64,000 nt of DNA from Agrobacterium tumefaciens. Lineage in GTDB: Bacteria > Pseudomonadota > Alphaproteobacteria > Rhizobiales > Rhizobiaceae. Every line of letters begins with the position of its first letter. Within the stretch, counting starts at the first letter, position 1. The notes under the pieces were generated by a model. That model was not told where the DNA came from and searched no databases. It was given only the letters and a program-made list of their open reading frames with translations. Positions 48,734 to 57,522 of the stretch are shown piece by piece. The DNA is taken from contig NZ_CP039903.1 in the NCBI RefSeq assembly GCF_005221385.1, forward strand, positions 1,922,001 through 1,986,000, written 5' to 3'. The position numbers were made by a program, and so were the translations under genes.

Positions 48734-48890
48734 GAGTTTCTGTCGATTCCGGAATTTATGGGGTTCCGTTCTCAAAAACATTTGCCTATAAGCCGCTTCT
48801 AGCCTGAAAACATTTGAATTGCGCTCCCCGGCCGGTGATCTTCCACCGTAGCCGGTGCTTTGCGCAACCAAAAAGCGGAACGAGAGAGCC

Positions 48891-51800
48891 ATGCCGAAGC
48901 GCCAAGATATCAAGTCCATCCTCATCATCGGCGCGGGACCGATCGTCATCGGTCAGGCATGTGAATTCGACTATTCCGGCACGCAGGCCTGCAAGGCGCT
49001 GAAGGAAGAGGGTTACCGGGTCATTCTGGTCAACTCCAACCCCGCGACCATCATGACCGATCCGGGCCTTGCCGACGCCACTTATGTCGAGCCGATCACG
49101 CCCGAAGTCGTGGCGAAGATCATCGCCAAGGAACGCCCGGACGCGCTGCTTCCGACCATGGGCGGCCAGACCGCGCTCAACACTGCGCTTTCTCTCAAGC
49201 GCATGGGCGTTCTCGACCGTTACAATGTCGAAATGATCGGCGCAAAGCCGGAAGCCATCGACATGGCCGAAGACCGCGCTCTCTTCCGCGAAGCCATGGC
49301 GCGCATCGGCCTTGAAACGCCGAAATCTATGCTGGCCAACGCGACCGAAATCAAGGATGCCGACCGCAAGACCCATGAGGCGGCGCGCGCTGAGCTGAAG
49401 GCAAAGCTTTCCGGCGCTGAACTGGACAAGGCGCTGGATGATCTCGAAAACCAGTGGAACCTCGGCGAGACTGACCGCAAGCAGCGCTACATGGCCCATG
49501 CGATTGCGATTGCCGCGCAGGCAATCGACCATGTCGGCCTGCCCGCCATCATCCGCCCGTCCTTCACGCTCGGCGGCACCGGCGGCGGCATTGCCTATAA
49601 CCGCTCGGAATTCTTCGACATCGTCTCGGGCGGCCTCGATGCCTCGCCGACCACCGAAGTGCTGGTCGAAGAATCGGTTCTCGGCTGGAAGGAATATGAG
49701 ATGGAAGTGGTCCGCGACACGGCGGACAATTGCATCATCATCTGCTCCATCGAAAACATCGATCCGATGGGCGTCCACACGGGTGACTCGATCACGGTTG
49801 CGCCGGCGCTGACCCTGACCGACAAAGAATACCAGATCATGCGCAACGCCTCGATTGCGGTGCTGCGCGAGATCGGCGTGGAAACCGGCGGCTCGAACGT
49901 GCAGTTCGCCGTCAATCCGAAAGATGGCCGCCTCGTCGTCATCGAAATGAACCCGCGCGTCTCGCGCTCGTCCGCACTGGCATCGAAGGCCACCGGCTTC
50001 CCGATTGCCAAGATCGCCGCCAAGCTCGCCATCGGCTACACGCTGGACGAGCTGGAAAACGACATTACCGGCGGTGCGACGCCGGCATCCTTCGAGCCTT
50101 CGATCGACTACGTCGTCACCAAGATCCCGCGTTTCGCCTTCGAGAAATTCCCGGGCGCTTCGCCGATCCTCACCACCGCCATGAAGTCGGTCGGCGAAGT
50201 CATGGCAATCGGCCGCACCTTCGCCGAATCGCTGCAGAAGGCTCTGCGCGGCATGGAAACCGGCCTCACCGGTCTCGATGAAATCGAAATCCCCGGCTTT
50301 GAGGAAGGCGAAGGCTCCAAGAACGCCATCCGCGCCGCCATCGGCACGCCGACGCCGGACCGTCTGCGCATGGTCGCCCAGGCGCTGCGCATGGGCATGA
50401 CCGAAGAGGAAGTCCACGAAAACTCGAAGATCGATCCGTGGTTCATCGCCCAGTTCAAGGCCATCGTCGACATGGAAGCCCGCATCCGCGAGCACGGCCT
50501 GCCGCAGGATGCCGAAAACCTGCGCATGCTCAAAGCCATGGGCTTTTCCGACGCCCGCCTCGCCAGCCTGACGTCCAAGCGCCCGAAGGAAGTGGCCGAG
50601 CTGCGCAACAGCCTCAATGTTCGCCCGGTCTTCAAGCGCATCGACACCTGCGCGGCCGAATTCGCTTCGCCGACCGCTTACATGTATTCGACCTATGAAA
50701 TCCCCTTCGTCGGCGCCGCCCGTTCGGAAGCGCAGGTTTCCGACCGCAAGAAAGTCGTCATCCTCGGTGGTGGTCCGAACCGCATCGGCCAGGGCATCGA
50801 GTTCGATTATTGCTGCTGCCATGCCGCCTTCGCGCTGAAGGATGCCGGCTTCGAAGCGATCATGATCAACTGTAACCCGGAAACGGTTTCCACCGACTAC
50901 GACACCTCCGACCGCCTCTATTTCGAACCGCTGACGGCCGAAGACGTGATCGAGATCATGCGTGCCGAACAGGAAAAGGGTGAACTCGTCGGCGTCATCG
51001 TGCAGTTCGGCGGCCAGACCCCGCTGAAGCTTGCCGAAGCGCTGGAAAAGAACGGTATCCCGATCCTCGGCACAGCGCCTGACATGATCGACCTTGCCGA
51101 AGACCGCGACCGCTTCCAGAAACTGCTGATGAAGCTGGACCTCGCCCAGCCGAACAACGGCATCGCCTATTCGGTCGAGCAGGCCCGCCTCGTCGCGTCT
51201 GAAATCGGCTTCCCGCTGGTGGTTCGCCCGTCCTACGTTCTGGGTGGCCGCGCCATGCAGATCATCCATTCGGAAGGCCAGCTCCAGACCTATCTGCTCG
51301 ACACGGTTCCGGGCCTGGTGCCTGAGGACATCAAGCAGCGTTACCCGAACGACAAGACCGGCCAGATCAACACCCTGCTCGGCAAGAACCCGCTTCTGTT
51401 CGACAGCTACCTGACCAACGCCGTCGAAGTGGACGTCGATGCGCTTTGCGACGGCGAAAGCGTCTTCGTTTCCGGCATCATGGAACACATCGAAGAAGCC
51501 GGCATCCACTCGGGCGATAGCGCCTGCTCGCTGCCGTCCCGTTCACTGAGCAAGGAAACCCTTGACGAGCTGGAACGCCAGACGACGGCACTTGCAAAAG
51601 CGCTTAATGTCGGCGGCCTGATGAACGTGCAATACGCCATCAAGGACGGCACGATCTACGTTCTCGAAGTCAACCCGCGCGCCTCGCGCACCGTGCCTTT
51701 CGTGGCGAAGACCATCGGCGCGCCGATTGCCAAGATTGCCGCCCGCGTCATGGCCGGTGAAAAGCTCGGCGCGGCGATTGCGGCTTACGGCGAAAAGCCT

Positions 51801-52379
51801 GATCCGCGCAACCTGAAGCACATCGCCGTCAAGGAAGCCGTCTTCCCCTTCGCCCGCTTCCCCGGCGTCGACATTCTGCTCGGACCGGAAATGCGCTCGA
51901 CCGGTGAAGTCATCGGCCTCGACACGGATTTCGCGCTGGCCTTCGCCAAGAGCCAGCTCGGCGCCGGCGTCGACCTGCCGCGCTCCGGCACCGTCTTTGT
52001 CTCGGTGCGTGACGACGATAAGGAAGGCGTTCTCCCCGCCATCCGCATTCTGGTGGAAAGCGGCTTCAAAGTCGTGGCGACCGGCGGCACCCAGCGTTTC
52101 CTCGCAGAACGGGGCGTCAACGCTGAAAAGATCAACAAGGTGCAGGAAGGCCGTCCGCATATCGAAGATGCCATCCGAAACCGCCAGGTCCAGCTCGTCA
52201 TCAATACCACTGATAGCAACAAGGCGATTTCCGATAGCAAGTCGCTGCGTCGTGCAACACTGATGCAGAAGGTACCCTACTACACAACCATGGCCGGCGC
52301 GGAAGCCGCCGCCCTTGCCATCAAGGCGCTGAAGGCCGGCAATCTGGAAGTGAAGCCGCTGCAGAGCTATTTCCAGTAA
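48891..52379 (+). CDS. carB: Carbamoyl-phosphate synthase large subunit
   Basis: 1162 residues from the ATG at 48891, preceded by GAGAGAG. Two homologous ATP-grasp halves: the first opens [20 protein letters not shown], and the second reads [19 protein letters not shown] from about residue 620. The C-terminal MGS-like allosteric domain (about 1020-1160) starts [18 protein letters not shown] and has [15 protein letters not shown]. The protein is about 90 residues longer than E. coli CarB, with a helical insert near residues 150-195, as usual in Rhizobiales. It makes carbamoyl phosphate from bicarbonate, ammonia and two ATP, with CarA. Confidence 0.97.
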
Positions 52380-52666: not shown

Positions 52667-52855
52667 ATGGCAGGACGTCCGCCGGGACCGGAACGGGTGG
52701 CTTTTCCGCTGCGGATCGAACCCGCAATATTGAACGTGATCAGGAACACTGCCAGCGGCGAATTGCGCAGCATCAATGCCCAGATCGAGATCTTGCTCAA
52801 GGAAGCCCTGCACCATCGCGCCGCGGCGGATGAAGTGAGCGAGCCGCAGGGCTAG
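52667..52855 (+). CDS. Arc-like ribbon-helix-helix DNA-binding protein
   Basis: 62 residues. The core FPLRIEPAILNVIRNTASGE...RSINAQIEILLKEAL is an Arc/MetJ-type ribbon-helix-helix: one beta strand that reads DNA bases (RVAFPLRIEP) and two helices. Antitoxins and small repressors use this fold. No toxin gene recognised; the 45-residue ORF upstream is the only partner. Its last codons overlap the end of the convergent diguanylate cyclase gene by 4 bp. Confidence 0.75.
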   Translation: MAGRPPGPERVAFPLRIEPAILNVIRNTASGELRSINAQIEILLKEALHHRAAADEVSEPQG

Positions 52856-53991
52856 GCCGCCAGCGCCTCGCGCACACAGTTACGCCCTTCGCTCTTGGCC
52901 CGGTAAAGGGCGCGATCCGCCATTTCCGCCAGCGTCTGCAGGTCGCAGCGCATCTCGCCCGCGGTCGCAACGCCGATGCTGATCGTGACACCAACGCGCA
53001 ACCCACCGCAATCAACGTCGTTGACCGCAACCGCATTGCGAATACGCTCGCCGATAACAGAGGCTTTCTGACCACCCGCACCCGGCAGGAAGATGATGAA
53101 TTCCTCACCACCGTACCGCGCCAATACATCGCCGCCGCGTATGCTGCCGCCGATGCGTTTTGCCACTTCCTGAAGGACGCTGTCACCGACGGCATGGCCA
53201 AAACGGTCGTTGATCGATTTGAAGTGATCGATATCCAGCAGCATGGCCGCATCGGCAGGATCGGGCGCCGCAGGCATCGCCTGGAAAAAGAACCGGCGGT
53301 TCTTGACGCCGGTCAGCGGGTCGGTATTGGCAAGAACCAGCAATTTCCGTTCGGACCGCTCGGCCACCAGCATCATCACGAACAGCGCGATGGCGAAATT
53401 CAACATGATGATGAAGAAAAACGCATTGACCAGGTTGATGGTGGCATAGTCCGGGAAAAATATGCTCTTCACCACAGAGAGCGAAATCAGACCGGAAATC
53501 CCGGCGATTGCGCCAAGCGCCAGACGGGAGAGAAGCCGCTCCTTGCGCCACCTTGCGAAAAGCCCAACCGCGCCCGCAAGATAGGCGAGAGCCGCGCAGC
53601 CATTGAACAAAGCCGCGCGATACGCATTGTTTTCAGCCACTTGCAGCGCGACGACAATCGCCAGCAGCGCGACAAGACAGAGGGCGACCACCGTCCGGCG
53701 GCCCACAGGGCGTCCGTCGCTCAGAACTTTCAGACCGAGCCAGATCAGCGCATAACCGATAATGCCGAAAACGACACTGCCGAGCCGCCATAAAGCCGGT
53801 GACATTATCCCCCATTCGCCGTAACCGGCGAGTGTGGAGCCAATTGTCATGGCTGCAAAGCCGGCAGCAAGAGCCACCGGGCCACGCAACCCTCGATTCG
53901 ACAACTTTAGATAGATGAAACTCAACAATCCTACAATATAAGAGCACTTCTGCATCAATATGACTGTCGTGAGGTCGAGTTCACCCAACAT
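52852..53991 (-). CDS. Membrane diguanylate cyclase (GGDEF)
   Basis: 379 residues from the ATG at 53991. About six membrane helices fill residues 1-205. A GGDEF domain follows: LANTDPLTGVKNRRFF at about residue 223 starts it. The active site is GGEEF in LARYGGEEFIIF, and an RxxD inhibitory site (RGGD) sits five residues before it, so product inhibition by c-di-GMP is likely. It makes c-di-GMP from two GTP. The membrane part is not a named sensor. It is preceded by a 133-bp very AT-rich promoter region (54,007-54,139). Confidence 0.92.
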   Translation of the reverse strand: MLGELDLTTVILMQKCSYIVGLLSFIYLKLSNRGLRGPVALAAGFAAMTIGSTLAGYGEWGIMSPALWRLGSVVFGIIGYALIWLGLKVLSDGRPVGRRTVVALCLVALLAIVVALQVAENNAYRAALFNGCAALAYLAGAVGLFARWRKERLLSRLALGAIAGISGLISLSVVKSIFFPDYATINLVNAFFFIIMLNFAIALFVMMLVAERSERKLLVLANTDPLTGVKNRRFFFQAMPAAPDPADAAMLLDIDHFKSINDRFGHAVGDSVLQEVAKRIGGSIRGGDVLARYGGEEFIIFLPGAGGQKASVIGERIRNAVAVNDVDCGGLRVGVTISIGVATAGEMRCDLQTLAEMADRALYRAKSEGRNCVREALAA

Positions 53992-54006
53992 AATATGTCC
54001 ACGCAA

Positions 54007-54139: not shown

Positions 54140-55594
54140 TTATTCGAATAATCTTAGAAACTCCATGTCCTTTTTGAAGAGCAGAGTTTCCGCCTCTCTC
54201 GCCCGCACATCCGGCAGACGCAGCAGATAGGATGGATGCACCGTGACAAAAAGCGTCCGCCCTTCCTGCATGGGAAGAGGGCGGCTCCTAACTTCGGTGA
54301 CTTTCTCCTTGCCACCGGTCAGGGCATAAAGCGCCGTAGCGCCCATGGCGACGATGAGCTTCGGCTGCACCAGTGCAATTTCCTGGTTCAGCCACCAGCG
54401 GCATTGCTGGATCTCACCCGCATTCGGCCGCTGGTGAATACGCCGCTTGCCGCGTGTTTCATATTTGAAATGCTTGACGGCATTGGTGACGTAAAGCCGC
54501 CTGCGGTCCACGCCAATCTCGCCCAGCGTTCGATCAAACAGCTGACCAGCAGGACCGAGGAAAGGTTTTCCGGCAAGATCTTCGTGATCGCCCGGCTGTT
54601 CACCGACGATCATGACATCCGCATTTTCCGGCCCCTCGCCAAAAACAGTTTGTGTCGCCTTGCAATGCAGCGGACATCGGGTGCATTCGCCTGCCTGCCG
54701 CCTCAGGGACCCAAGCGAATCTTCCAGTTCCTGCGGGGCCTCCTTCCGCGCCGCGGCGGCAACGGCCTGCAGGCGGTGATGAAACGGCTGCGGCTGGCTT
54801 GCCGCCTTGGCCGCCATATCAAGCACCCGCGCCTCCGCGCCCAGAATGAGGCCGGGAATGAGATCCGCTTCCGGCAGGTTCTTCCAGTATTTTTTTGGCA
54901 TCTCCGCCGTCATCGCCTTGATCTTCAAGCGGGCCGGATTGAAAATATTGGCATAATAGGTCCGCCAGAGATCGTCCGTTTCATCTTTCAGGTCGGGTTG
55001 AGCGGCGGCCTCCCGCGACGTCTGCAACACGCTTCCATCCCATCGCGCAGACCCTTTCGGCGTCGCGATCAGCCAGTCCATGTCAGTGAACCGCCGCTGG
55101 AAAAACGGCGCCTCGCGCTCGACAATGAAATGATCCGGCTCAAACCAGGCGACGAAGCGCCGTCGCCCACCCTGCCCCTGCGGTAATGGTAACTCCTTGA
55201 AACGAACGAAGGCCGTCATCTTGTGACAGTCACGGCGGACGGATTTTTCGAGCAGTCGCGCTTGTGAAACATCCGGATCGGACTTGAACTGCAACAGGGC
55301 GCGATCCTGCCTAAGCCGCCACAACAGCCGGTATAGTAACGCAAAACGGCCATTATCGCTGTGACAGATCACCGCCTGCGCCAGCGCCACGAAGGCGGAC
55401 GGAACGGAAACCTGTGCTTCCCCAACCCTGGGTGTCGGCAACGGCTCACCGGCAAAATCCAGCAGCCCCGCTTCGTCATCCCGCAGCTGCCAGTCAATCG
55501 CTTCCGGTGGTATATTGGCGGCAAGCGCCATCCGAGCCGCGTCACGCCACTCGCCGAAATCGCCCCGCCCTTCCAGAACCGGGCCGTACATCAC
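54140..55594 (-). CDS. udgX: DUF4130-UdgX fusion, uracil-DNA glycosylase superfamily
   Basis: 484 residues. The first 250 or so match DUF4130 (RRDCHKMTAFVRFKE, HFIVEREAPFFQRRF, YWKNLPEADLIPGL). The C-terminal 200 are a family-4-like uracil glycosylase: a FeS-type cysteine pair in ECTRCPLHCKAT, motif A GEQPGDHEDLAGKPFLGPAG from residue 331, YVTNAVKHFKY, the loop GKRRIHQRP with His387, a further Cys in IQQCRWWL and motif B VHPSYLLRLPD. The KRRIH loop defines UdgX, whose histidine forms a covalent bond with the uracil-site sugar in DNA. It starts inside the stop of the radical SAM gene (ATGA), so the two products are made together. Its exact lesion and fate after crosslinking are not known. Confidence 0.9.
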   Translation of the reverse strand: MMYGPVLEGRGDFGEWRDAARMALAANIPPEAIDWQLRDDEAGLLDFAGEPLPTPRVGEAQVSVPSAFVALAQAVICHSDNGRFALLYRLLWRLRQDRALLQFKSDPDVSQARLLEKSVRRDCHKMTAFVRFKELPLPQGQGGRRRFVAWFEPDHFIVEREAPFFQRRFTDMDWLIATPKGSARWDGSVLQTSREAAAQPDLKDETDDLWRTYYANIFNPARLKIKAMTAEMPKKYWKNLPEADLIPGLILGAEARVLDMAAKAASQPQPFHHRLQAVAAAARKEAPQELEDSLGSLRRQAGECTRCPLHCKATQTVFGEGPENADVMIVGEQPGDHEDLAGKPFLGPAGQLFDRTLGEIGVDRRRLYVTNAVKHFKYETRGKRRIHQRPNAGEIQQCRWWLNQEIALVQPKLIVAMGATALYALTGGKEKVTEVRSRPLPMQEGRTLFVTVHPSYLLRLPDVRAREAETLLFKKDMEFLRLFE

Positions 55595-56823
55595 AACAGC
55601 GACAATTGTTCGGGCTGCGGCGCAAACATTGCCCGCAGATCCGGCCGTTCAGTCAGTTTGCCCGGCGTCCAGCCGTCCGCAACGATAAAGGCCTTCACTT
55701 TTTTCAGAGACACCCCAAAGCGGGCAATATCCTCCAGCCGTACCCGCCGAAACCGTCGCGACGAGAGAATGGAAGCGACCGTCTTGGTGCCGAAACCCGG
55801 CACTCGCAGCAGCATTTCCCGATCCGCGACATTCACATCCACCGGAAAACGGTCGCGATTTTTGAGCGCCCATGCCAGCTTCGGATCGATATCGAGATCC
55901 AGCATGCCATCGCCACCAATCGCGGTTATCTCGCCGATGTCAAAACCGTAAAACCGATAAAGCCAGTCCGCCTGATAAAGCCTGTGCTCACGCATCAAAG
56001 GCGGCTTGATCAGCGGCAGGTTTTTCGAAGAATCCGGAATGGGGCTGAAGGCCGAATAATAGACGCGCCGCAGACCATAACTGCCATAAAGCCTGGCGCT
56101 GGTGGAGAGGATGGTGCTGTCATCGGCACCGTCAGCACCCACGATCATCTGTGTGCTCTGTCCGGCGGGCGCGAAGCGCTTGGTCCGACGCGTCCGCGCC
56201 GTTGGCTCGCCCGCCTCCTCGATCTTCAGACGGATATCGGCCATGGAGCGGCGAATATTGGCGGGCTGCTTTTCCGGCGCGAAACGACCAATACCGCTAT
56301 CGGTCGGCAACTCGATATTGATCGACAGGCGGTCCGCATAAAGCCCCGCCTCCTCTATGAGCTTCGGCGACGCTTCAGGGATCGATTTCAAATGGATATA
56401 ACCACGAAATCCATGGGTAACGCGCAGCTCCCGCGCCACGCGCACCATCTCTTCCATCGTATGATCCGAGGAGCGGATAATGCCGGAAGACAGAAACAGC
56501 CCCTCAATATAGTTGCGTCGATAGAACTCCAGCGTCAGCCACACCACCTCCTCGGCAGTAAATCGCGCGCGCTCCACATTGCTGGAGGAGCGGTTGATGC
56601 AATAGGCGCAGTCATAGATGCAAAAATTGGTGAGCAGGATTTTCAGGAGCGAAATGCAGCGCCCGTCCGGCGCATAAGCATGGCAGATACCCGACCCCTC
56701 CGTTGAACCCAGCCCGCCAGACGCAGCGGAGCTGCGTTTCGTCGTGCCGCTGGAGGCGCAGGATGCGTCATATTTCGCCGCATCGGAGAGAATGGCCAGA
56801 CGTTGCCTGATTGACTTCTTCAT
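55591..56823 (-). CDS. Putative DNA modification/repair radical SAM protein (UDG-linked)
   Basis: 410 residues from the ATG at 56823; the longer frame starts inside the LexA box and was rejected. The N-terminus reads RLAILSDAAKYDASCASSG, a family hallmark. The radical SAM cluster is in LTNFCIYDCAYC (CxxxCxxC) near residue 70. A barrel follows, with GLFLSSGIIRSSDHT and GYIHLKSIPEAS. The C-terminus has a helix-hairpin-helix DNA-binding motif (LRVPGFGTKTVASIL). The family TIGR03916 is almost always next to a DUF4130-UDG gene, as here. It likely performs radical chemistry on DNA or a nucleic-acid intermediate; no substrate is known to me. Confidence 0.9.
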   Translation of the reverse strand: MKKSIRQRLAILSDAAKYDASCASSGTTKRSSAASGGLGSTEGSGICHAYAPDGRCISLLKILLTNFCIYDCAYCINRSSSNVERARFTAEEVVWLTLEFYRRNYIEGLFLSSGIIRSSDHTMEEMVRVARELRVTHGFRGYIHLKSIPEASPKLIEEAGLYADRLSINIELPTDSGIGRFAPEKQPANIRRSMADIRLKIEEAGEPTARTRRTKRFAPAGQSTQMIVGADGADDSTILSTSARLYGSYGLRRVYYSAFSPIPDSSKNLPLIKPPLMREHRLYQADWLYRFYGFDIGEITAIGGDGMLDLDIDPKLAWALKNRDRFPVDVNVADREMLLRVPGFGTKTVASILSSRRFRRVRLEDIARFGVSLKKVKAFIVADGWTPGKLTERPDLRAMFAPQPEQLSLL

Positions 56824-56829
56824 AATTGT

Positions 56830-56844
56830 GTTCACTATATGTTC
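56830..56844. promoter_or_regulatory. Consensus alphaproteobacterial LexA (SOS) box
   Basis: GTTCACTATATGTTC, an exact GTTC-N7-GTTC, ends 7 bp before the radical SAM start codon. This is the known LexA target form in alphaproteobacteria. LexA bound here would block the two-gene transcript until DNA damage. Confidence 0.75.
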
Positions 56845-57045
56845 TATTGAAAAATGTCAATCATGCCGCTTAACTCCATGAATGGACGTATAAAATTGAC
56901 CGCCTCAAATTTGCTGGCATTTCGCTGTCGTCTTCTGATATAGTCGGCTTAGTTATGATTTTGGCATGGTTCCGGAGTTCCTCTCCGGAACCTGTTTCTT
57001 TTTGTGTCTGCAAGTAAAAGCGACAGGACTGCGAAGGATAAAAAA

Positions 57046-57522
57046 ATGGTAGAAAAAGTGCCGATGACTCAGGGTGGATTCGTCAAGCTGCAGGAGGAGC
57101 TGCGCTTTCGCCAGCAGGAGGAACGTCCCCGTATCATCGAGGCAATTGCGGAAGCGCGCGCCCATGGCGACCTTTCGGAAAATGCCGAATACCACGCTGC
57201 CAAGGAAGCCCAGAGCCATAATGAAGGCCGCATCACCGAACTGGAAGACCTGACCGCGCGCGCGGAGGTCATCGACCTTTCCAAGATGTCCGGTTCCAAG
57301 ATCAAGTTCGGCGCCACCGTCAAGCTGGTCGATGAGGACAGCGACGAGGAAAAGACCTACCAGATCGTCGGCGACCAGGAAGCCGATGTGAAGGCAGGCC
57401 GCATTTCCATCTCTTCGCCCATCGCCCGTGCCTTGATCGGCAAGGAAGTCGGCGACAGCATCGAAGTCAACGCCCCGGGCGGCGCCAAGGGTTACGAAAT
57501 CCTCGCGGTACAGTGGGGCTGA
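57046..57522 (+). CDS. greA: Transcription elongation factor GreA
   Basis: 158 residues from the ATG at 57046, with AAGGA upstream. The N-terminal coiled coil has [13 protein letters not shown] and the tip motif [14 protein letters not shown], whose acidic residues promote RNA cleavage in the RNA polymerase secondary channel. The C-terminal FKBP-like domain has [11 protein letters not shown] and [15 protein letters not shown]. It rescues backtracked polymerase. It is divergent from the radical SAM gene, and a terminator follows. Confidence 0.97.

Follow-up and report, generated by a model that had tools for sequence, protein, structure and literature searches.

A predicted LexA-controlled radical SAM-DUF4130 gene pair of Agrobacterium tumefaciens in which the fused UdgX domain appears to be an optional accessory

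The window examined here, a stretch of 64,000 nucleotides from Agrobacterium tumefaciens (contig NZ_CP039903.1), carries on its minus strand a two-gene locus (54140-56823) in which, according to the open reading frame (ORF) list and family profile searches, a radical S-adenosylmethionine (SAM) gene is followed by a gene for a DUF4130-UdgX fusion. Gene 1 (55591-56823, minus strand, 410 amino acids) encodes a radical SAM protein that scores 564.6 bits against TIGR03916 in NCBIfam (cut-off 343.5) and 30.4 bits against PF04055 in Pfam (cut-off 29.5). The product of gene 2 (54140-55594, minus strand, 484 amino acids; mean pLDDT of the structure model 92.2) reaches 217.7 bits against TIGR03915 (cut-off 112.25), 343.5 against TIGR03914 (cut-off 189.95) and 133.6 against PF13566, the DUF4130 family (cut-off 27); the uracil-DNA glycosylase (UDG) family PF03167 is matched as well. 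Depending on the start codon chosen for gene 2, the genes overlap by four nucleotides (GTGA, from the GTG at 55594) or by one (TGATG, from an ATG), and not by ATGA as the first-pass annotation of the locus had proposed. The mechanical ORF of gene 1 begins at a GTG within the operator described below; its relatives favor the ATG at 56823.

Six nucleotides before this ATG lies an exact match to GTTC-N7-GTTC, the predicted LexA operator (56830-56844, plus strand; GTTCACTATATGTTC, or GAACATATAGTGAAC on the gene strand), as the first-pass annotation had noticed. Taken by itself the match is unremarkable: the window holds four such boxes against 1.67 expected, and four or more turned up in 6 of 100 shuffles, which is not significant. 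A count over the whole genome of the window gave 170 occurrences of the pattern and 94 of a reversed control. What lends weight to the box is its conservation. When the 250 nucleotides in front of DAAKYDASC, an N-terminal motif of the gene 1 product, were searched, the direct repeat was present in all 87 alphaproteobacterial loci, drawn from 14 families, against a mean of 0.67 and a maximum of 3 in 200 rounds of shuffling; control motifs were found in one (GAAC-N6-GAAC), none (GAAC-N8-GAAC) and three (CAAG-N7-CAAG) of the same loci. Chance occurrence is ruled out because the box is conserved upstream of gene 1 in this way, even though the bare match would not attract attention. The box has the same orientation as in the window in 73 loci and the opposite one in 14, and in 37 of the 73 its distance to DAAKYDASC is identical. 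Taken together, these comparisons support the prediction, already made at first pass, that the cassette is under LexA-type control.

The operator may double as part of the promoter. Its spacer contains TATAGT (56834-56839, minus strand), a possible -10 element, with TTGACA 15 nucleotides upstream. The spacer consensus of the 73 boxes in the same orientation, A-TATAAT, reads as a -10 hexamer, and TTGAC begins 15-18 nucleotides before the box in 13 of them. One could envision a -10 element inside the operator and a transcript starting just a few bases before the ATG.

In this genome a box of the same type, measured from its first base, stands 78 nucleotides before lexA (TIGR00498) and another 161 nucleotides before uvrA. 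Among 18 boxes picked by hand from the first 100 of the 170 places, mostly for AT-rich spacers, four lie near an identified repair or SOS gene (lexA, uvrA, an AlkZ-like gene and a PA0069-family radical SAM gene) and most lie near none. The GAAC-N7-GAAC box at 398869-398883 of G000:C1, the window's own genome (L208), is 128 nucleotides from the start of the PA0069-family gene, and the genome may thus hold a second SOS-linked radical SAM protein; the box at 426765-426779 of the same contig (L209), also GAAC-N7-GAAC, is 52 nucleotides from the start of the gene for the AlkZ-like DNA glycosylase.

The radical SAM protein displays the SAM-cluster motif CxxxCxxC reported at first pass (C68, C72 and C75; 56599-56622, minus strand) and three further cysteines, C22, C47 and C56, that are candidate ligands of an auxiliary iron-sulfur (Fe-S) cluster (56656-56760, minus strand). 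All six are present without exception in the 195 full-length relatives compared, a further, shorter row having been set aside. A structure search returned lipoyl synthase and HydE as the nearest folds, with biotin synthase also matched, and the combination of six invariant cysteines with a modeled fold of this kind may point to a second Fe-S cluster. Gene 1 differs from lipoyl synthase, HydE and biotin synthase in having a C-terminal helix-hairpin-helix (HhH)-like segment (approximately residues 327-362; 55738-55845, minus strand), and presumably in the spacing of its cysteines. The DNA-binding HhH of the first-pass annotation is weakly supported: the segment gives weak profile matches to the HhH proteins EEPD1, ComEA and RuvA (best E 0.014-0.07) and some close relatives carry the Pfam label PF14520; the window protein itself has no Pfam HhH match. 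TIGR03916 is its sole NCBIfam match at E ≤ 0.001, with no match to a spore-photoproduct-lyase family, and membership in SplB was rejected on this ground. Spore photoproduct lyase is also missing from the 50 structure matches listed, a fact that carries no weight.

In the second protein, DUF4130 (PF13566 by Pfam) occupies residues 83-242 (54869-55348, minus strand), with H124, R131, F132, P153, F165, R168, I176, W210, Y213, R222, W237 and E242 invariant over 58 rows. The fold matches of the full-length protein are taken up by the UDG part, a UdgX-type domain spanning residues 286-484 (54143-54739, minus strand), whose UdgX fold was confirmed by comparison of the modeled structure. Its motif A, GEQPG, starts at residue 331 (54590-54604, minus strand; 82 of the 83 fused rows have the Glu and 82 the Gln). 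The KRRIH R-loop recognized at first pass covers residues 383-387 (54434-54448, minus strand) and ends in His387, the UdgX crosslinking histidine, likewise kept in 82 of 83; motif B, HPSYLLR, starts at residue 453 (54218-54238, minus strand; His in 83 of 83, Arg in 81). The UdgX active site is thus predicted to be complete for crosslinking. The crystallized UdgX of Mycobacterium smegmatis (PDB 6ajo) consists of the UDG domain alone, in contrast to the C-terminal fusion to DUF4130 and the predicted LexA box found here. In one fused copy (L101) the reading frame of the UDG domain remains open, but the Glu of motif A, the His of the R-loop and the Arg of motif B are no longer present. Seven other fused UdgX domains (L045, L093, L095, L096, L102, L106 and L116) retain the crosslinking His but have lost the equivalents of C304, C307 and C398 together, which would fit abandonment of the Fe-S cluster. 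The UdgX of L060 also deviates at these three positions, possibly through misalignment.

The radical SAM and DUF4130 genes rarely part company. Within the fetched stretches, a DUF4130 gene follows the radical SAM gene on its strand in 111 of 116 Pseudomonadota loci and in 78 of 80 named loci, where the gap reaches about 1.2 kb at most. The named loci are the top 80 among 587 confirmed candidates by similarity to L047, a locus lacking UdgX, and are biased accordingly. The exceptions support the link between the two genes. In three genomes (G216, G472 and G460) DUF4130 is on the strand of the radical SAM gene but more distant, a further 2.3-3.1 kb downstream, and a fourth (G211) has it on the contig of the radical SAM gene at a distance of about 495 kb; in G045, which is 85% complete, the contig ends within the radical SAM gene and DUF4130 was not found. 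The two named exceptions (L131 and L166) have DUF4130 elsewhere in the genome. A further genome, G232 (76% complete), has a partial radical SAM match and no DUF4130 that could be found. Among 190 genomes of the class, TIGR03916 and TIGR03915 each exceed their cut-off in 10, and nine genomes have both; G045 has the radical SAM protein only, and in G182 DUF4130 stands next to a degraded radical SAM gene. As a control, the genome of Caulobacter vibrioides gave matches to all three families of the cassette, the one to TIGR03915 being over cut-off. In the degraded cassette of the latter (L011, G182:C1) most of the radical SAM domain is gone from the remaining fragment, and the box and the DUF4130 gene persist. 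Over the named loci, ORF groups other than this pair extend to no more than 17 loci, the group of 17 being the divergent HTH-S24 regulator described below.

Association with UdgX is far looser. No UDG domain was detected in the stretches of the 80 named loci (phmmer, E 0.001). A survey of 148 Bacteroidota genomes, a less biased test than the named loci, gave DUF4130 over cut-off in 43 and UdgX over cut-off in none; sub-threshold UDG matches, present in 108 of the 148, look like ordinary family-4 UDGs. When 21 proteins with DUF4130 only were scanned, all matched DUF4130/TIGR03915 and none matched a UDG model. The operator is kept in the absence of UdgX in five alphaproteobacterial loci (L002, L003, L007, L053 and L057) and in sixteen loci of families f171, f172 and f179; two more UdgX-less loci (L047 and L075) have no recognized box. 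That UdgX has simply moved elsewhere in the genome was rejected, since a separate UdgX over cut-off occurs in just one (G033) of the 27 genomes with a UdgX-less locus that were scanned. On a radical SAM tree of 72 rows (41 fused and 31 unfused, midpoint root) the fusion state switches at least nine times, at least six of them forced by well supported branches. With this root, the tree reads most simply as one gain of the fusion in the proteobacterial branch followed by several losses, and transfer back is possible. Most alphaproteobacterial copies, that of the window included, retain the fusion. The UdgX-less Bacteroidota and proteobacterial lineages, together with the decayed domain of L101, rule out UdgX as the core of the system.

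Predicted SOS control appears to be retained in most groups, the operator type changing with the host. In other Pseudomonadota families, CTG-N10-CAG is present in 24 of 29 loci at about -48 to -89, and the strict form CTGT-N8-ACAG in 19 of 29 (shuffle mean 0.09). For Bacteroidetes, the available part of PMC8565304 gives GGA-N5-TCC and CTAA-N5-TTAG as SOS motifs, and 40 of 71 Bacteroidota-type loci have at least one of them, GGA-N5-TCC being present in 18 (shuffle mean 2.2) and CTAA-N5-TTAG in 24 (shuffle mean 0.47). These 71 are the named loci minus nine titled Psychrobacter, Moraxella, Brachymonas or Acinetobacter, and include one titled Saccharospirillaceae (L199). A regulator of about 250-260 amino acids is encoded next to, and divergently from, the radical SAM gene in 17 of the 80 named loci; the four that were scanned all show HTH_3 and Peptidase_S24 over the Pfam cut-off, and GGA-N5-TCC falls within the region shared with the regulator in 15 of the 17. 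These properties recall the non-canonical Bacteroidetes LexA, described in the same portion of PMC8565304 as a CI-type helix-turn-helix (HTH; PF01381) joined to an S24 peptidase that binds GGA-N5-TCC or CTAA-N5-TTAG. The divergent HTH-S24 protein is probably an SOS repressor of this type, physically tied to the cassette.

Some groups display other upstream sequences. Family f174 matched none of the motifs tried; in three of its loci (L078, L079 and L083) a palindrome, GGTTTCC-nnn-ATGGAAACC, spans the start codon of the radical SAM gene and is possibly a different operator. Neither the UmuDAb motif nor the gram-positive-type GAAC-N4-GTTC has an exact match upstream in three Acinetobacter loci; Acinetobacter is not known to have a LexA. 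A common palindrome of the type CGTCA-CCTCA-TGACG lies upstream of the radical SAM gene in the Acinetobacter loci L186, L187 and L203. Four Chryseobacterium loci (L133-L136) have a GAAC-N7-GAAC repeat upstream of the radical SAM gene, with near-matches in sister loci, although neither Bacteroidetes SOS motif is present there in this group.

The gene set has been catalogued before, and its description as a new system at first pass fails because PMC3765255, PMC8565304 (each as far as its available text goes) and a trio of NCBIfam families predate that claim. The excerpt of PMC3765255 (Aravind et al.) places DUF4130, in 2013, in an SOS network with SplB-like radical SAM photolyases and UDGs, and suggests that DUF4130, radical SAM and UDG might modify thymines. 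With this node our pair has the DUF4130-radical SAM-UDG link in common; relative to the excerpt, the present work adds operator evidence for the pair and the lack of NCBIfam support for the SplB-like label. The available text of PMC8565304 names an SOS-regulated two-gene operon, COG1573-COG4277, a putative UDG-based base excision repair (BER) system, and attributes earlier reports of it to Verrucomicrobia and Alphaproteobacteria. The SOS-linked two-gene layout is alike; in contrast, the named loci, mostly Bacteroidota, show no UDG domain beside the radical SAM gene, and the COG1573 label in that text probably stems from the fused form. The NCBIfam trio comprises TIGR03916, TIGR03915 and TIGR03914 (rSAM_link_UDG, SAM_7_link_chp and UDG_fam_dom); all three cut-offs are passed, and nothing sets the window copy apart. 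We take COG4277 to be the COG of the TIGR03916 family. The first-pass remark that TIGR03916 travels with DUF4130-UDG and has no assigned reaction holds within the searches made: none is given for this radical SAM family or for DUF4130 in NCBIfam or in the libraries and literature searched. The literature search found no paper linking UdgX with a radical SAM protein; COG4277 retrieved PMC8565304 only, the TIGR family names led to one Chloroflexota genomics paper, and no DUF4130 paper other than PMC3765255 and PMC8565304 was among the matches listed.

On balance, and by a modest degree, we favor the view that a LexA-controlled radical SAM-DUF4130 unit processing a damaged DNA base is the conserved core and that the fused UdgX is an optional accessory. 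The features of the sequences that carry this view are the two genes with their conserved operator, the co-occurrence of radical SAM and DUF4130 even when unlinked, the invariant cysteines, the intact UdgX site and the recurrent absence of UdgX; from these we infer repression, induction, DNA as the substrate and the base chemistry. LexA would keep the promoter, whose likely -10 element lies within the operator, switched off until DNA damage led to its release and the operon was induced. The HhH segment and DUF4130 would then present the lesion, a SAM-derived radical would reverse or convert it, and the fused UdgX, where present, would likely capture uracil at lesion sites. As the substrate we weakly favor a pyrimidine lesion. 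Cytosines in UV dimers deaminate fast, so light-independent reversal would leave uracil behind, and a uracil-specific domain might for this reason have joined DUF4130 in Proteobacteria. This link through deaminated dimers is the least supported step; we chose it because it offers a reason for a uracil-specific domain to have become attached to a radical enzyme that is also found where UdgX is missing. In its most specific form the proposal would be of an SOS-induced, light-independent radical repair enzyme, distinct from SplB, with a lipoyl-synthase-like second Fe-S cluster and an HhH, which directly reverses pyrimidine lesions presented by DUF4130, UdgX catching the uracils that arise by deamination; stated so fully, it is rather unlikely to be right in every part.

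Several observations weigh against the favored view. At the box, a sigma-70 scan requiring 16-18 nucleotide spacing gave no promoter. No relative of DUF4130 turned up in the PDB at the sequence level, and the region of the extra cysteines is mostly of low confidence in the structure model. Five of the 29 other Pseudomonadota loci (three of f174, one of f213 and one of f165) have no recognized box, and both Bacteroidetes motifs are missing from 31 of the 71 Bacteroidota-type loci, 14 of them of the Chryseobacterium group; moreover, the GGA sites beside the divergent S24 gene may serve that gene and not the cassette.

Alternative explanations share part of this evidence. The published view would make the locus an SOS-induced uracil BER operon in which the glycosylase acts and the COG4277 protein assists; it has in its favor the naming of the operon in the available text of PMC8565304, with the Verrucomicrobia and Alphaproteobacteria reports cited there, and the intact UdgX site of the window copy. 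It becomes quite improbable in view of the missing UDG domain in the named stretches (0 of 80), in the DUF-only proteins (0 of 21) and, as UdgX, in the surveyed Bacteroidota (0 of 148). A further point against it is that UdgX forms an irreversible complex with DNA according to PMC10359453, which also describes the physiological role of UdgX as largely unknown. The first-pass annotation had proposed instead that UdgX traps the lesion covalently and that the radical SAM protein and DUF4130 then act on, or resolve, the trapped nucleotide. Operon order, the fusion itself and the conservation of the catalytic residues in nearly all fused rows would fit such a sequence of events, but in Bacteroidota and several proteobacterial lineages the radical SAM protein, DUF4130 and the operator persist although UdgX is absent, and the domain has decayed in L101. 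As a general mechanism the trap is improbable for this reason, and it would be viable only as a lineage-specific extension.

A damage-induced pair that alters DNA bases for mutagenesis or protection, and does not repair them, is unlikely. The thymine-modification suggestion in the excerpted legend of PMC3765255 and the fold matches to lipoyl synthase, HydE and biotin synthase are consistent with it; a fold match, however, shows no reaction, PADLOC gave no match and just two related loci come from viral contigs. It is very doubtful that gene 1 is a SplB-type spore photoproduct lyase under another name. Both are radical SAM proteins and SOS-linked, and the available part of PMC3765255 terms the partners SplB-like; against this, no NCBIfam spore-photoproduct-lyase match was obtained at E 0.001, and BLASTP found no significant similarity to the boxed PA0069-family radical SAM protein of the same genome (best E 0.25).

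If UdgX is dispensable to a radical SAM-DUF4130 core, two questions can be separated: UdgX-less hosts would serve for the chemistry of the core, and hosts with the fusion for the contribution of UdgX. The same finding calls for caution about the operon that the literature describes as repair by a uracil glycosylase, since the Bacteroidota-type loci studied here contain no glycosylase domain.

The window's own locus (L004) is part of the 87, 195 and 83 counted above, in the 83 also as row Q. The counts leave out L011 (a radical SAM fragment with the box present), L012-L017 (weak matches), L124-L127 (duplicates) and G232 (a partial match). L039 and L076, whose gene 2 runs off the stretch or contig, were not scored as UdgX-less, and the parts of L063, which has a possible frameshift, were not joined. 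The UdgX residue counts omit L005, L024, L030 and L041 (cut) and L126 (a duplicate), L125 replacing L005.

The cassette is patchy in its distribution, occurring in 31 of 61 genomes of the family and, over cut-off, in 84 of 398 of the phylum. It was found in 158 of 72,556 plasmid records, 142 of the 158 being classed as non-mobilizable. An anti-phage defense role was rejected, as PADLOC matched no defense family for the three proteins submitted and PHROGs returned weak matches only. The idea of a phage-borne cassette was set aside too, two loci having come from viral contigs. The nearest named proteins are from Agrobacterium and Rhizobium, with identities of up to 98% for gene 1 and of 98% for gene 2 (Agrobacterium genomosp. 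3). Going by their translations, we take the neighbors on one side to be a carB-like gene (48855-52379, plus strand) and a GGDEF-like gene (52852-54006, minus strand), and the one on the other side to be a greA-like gene (57004-57522, plus strand) divergent from the cassette. A terminator-like hairpin with a T run lies at 56968-56992 (plus strand), in the leader of this divergent gene.

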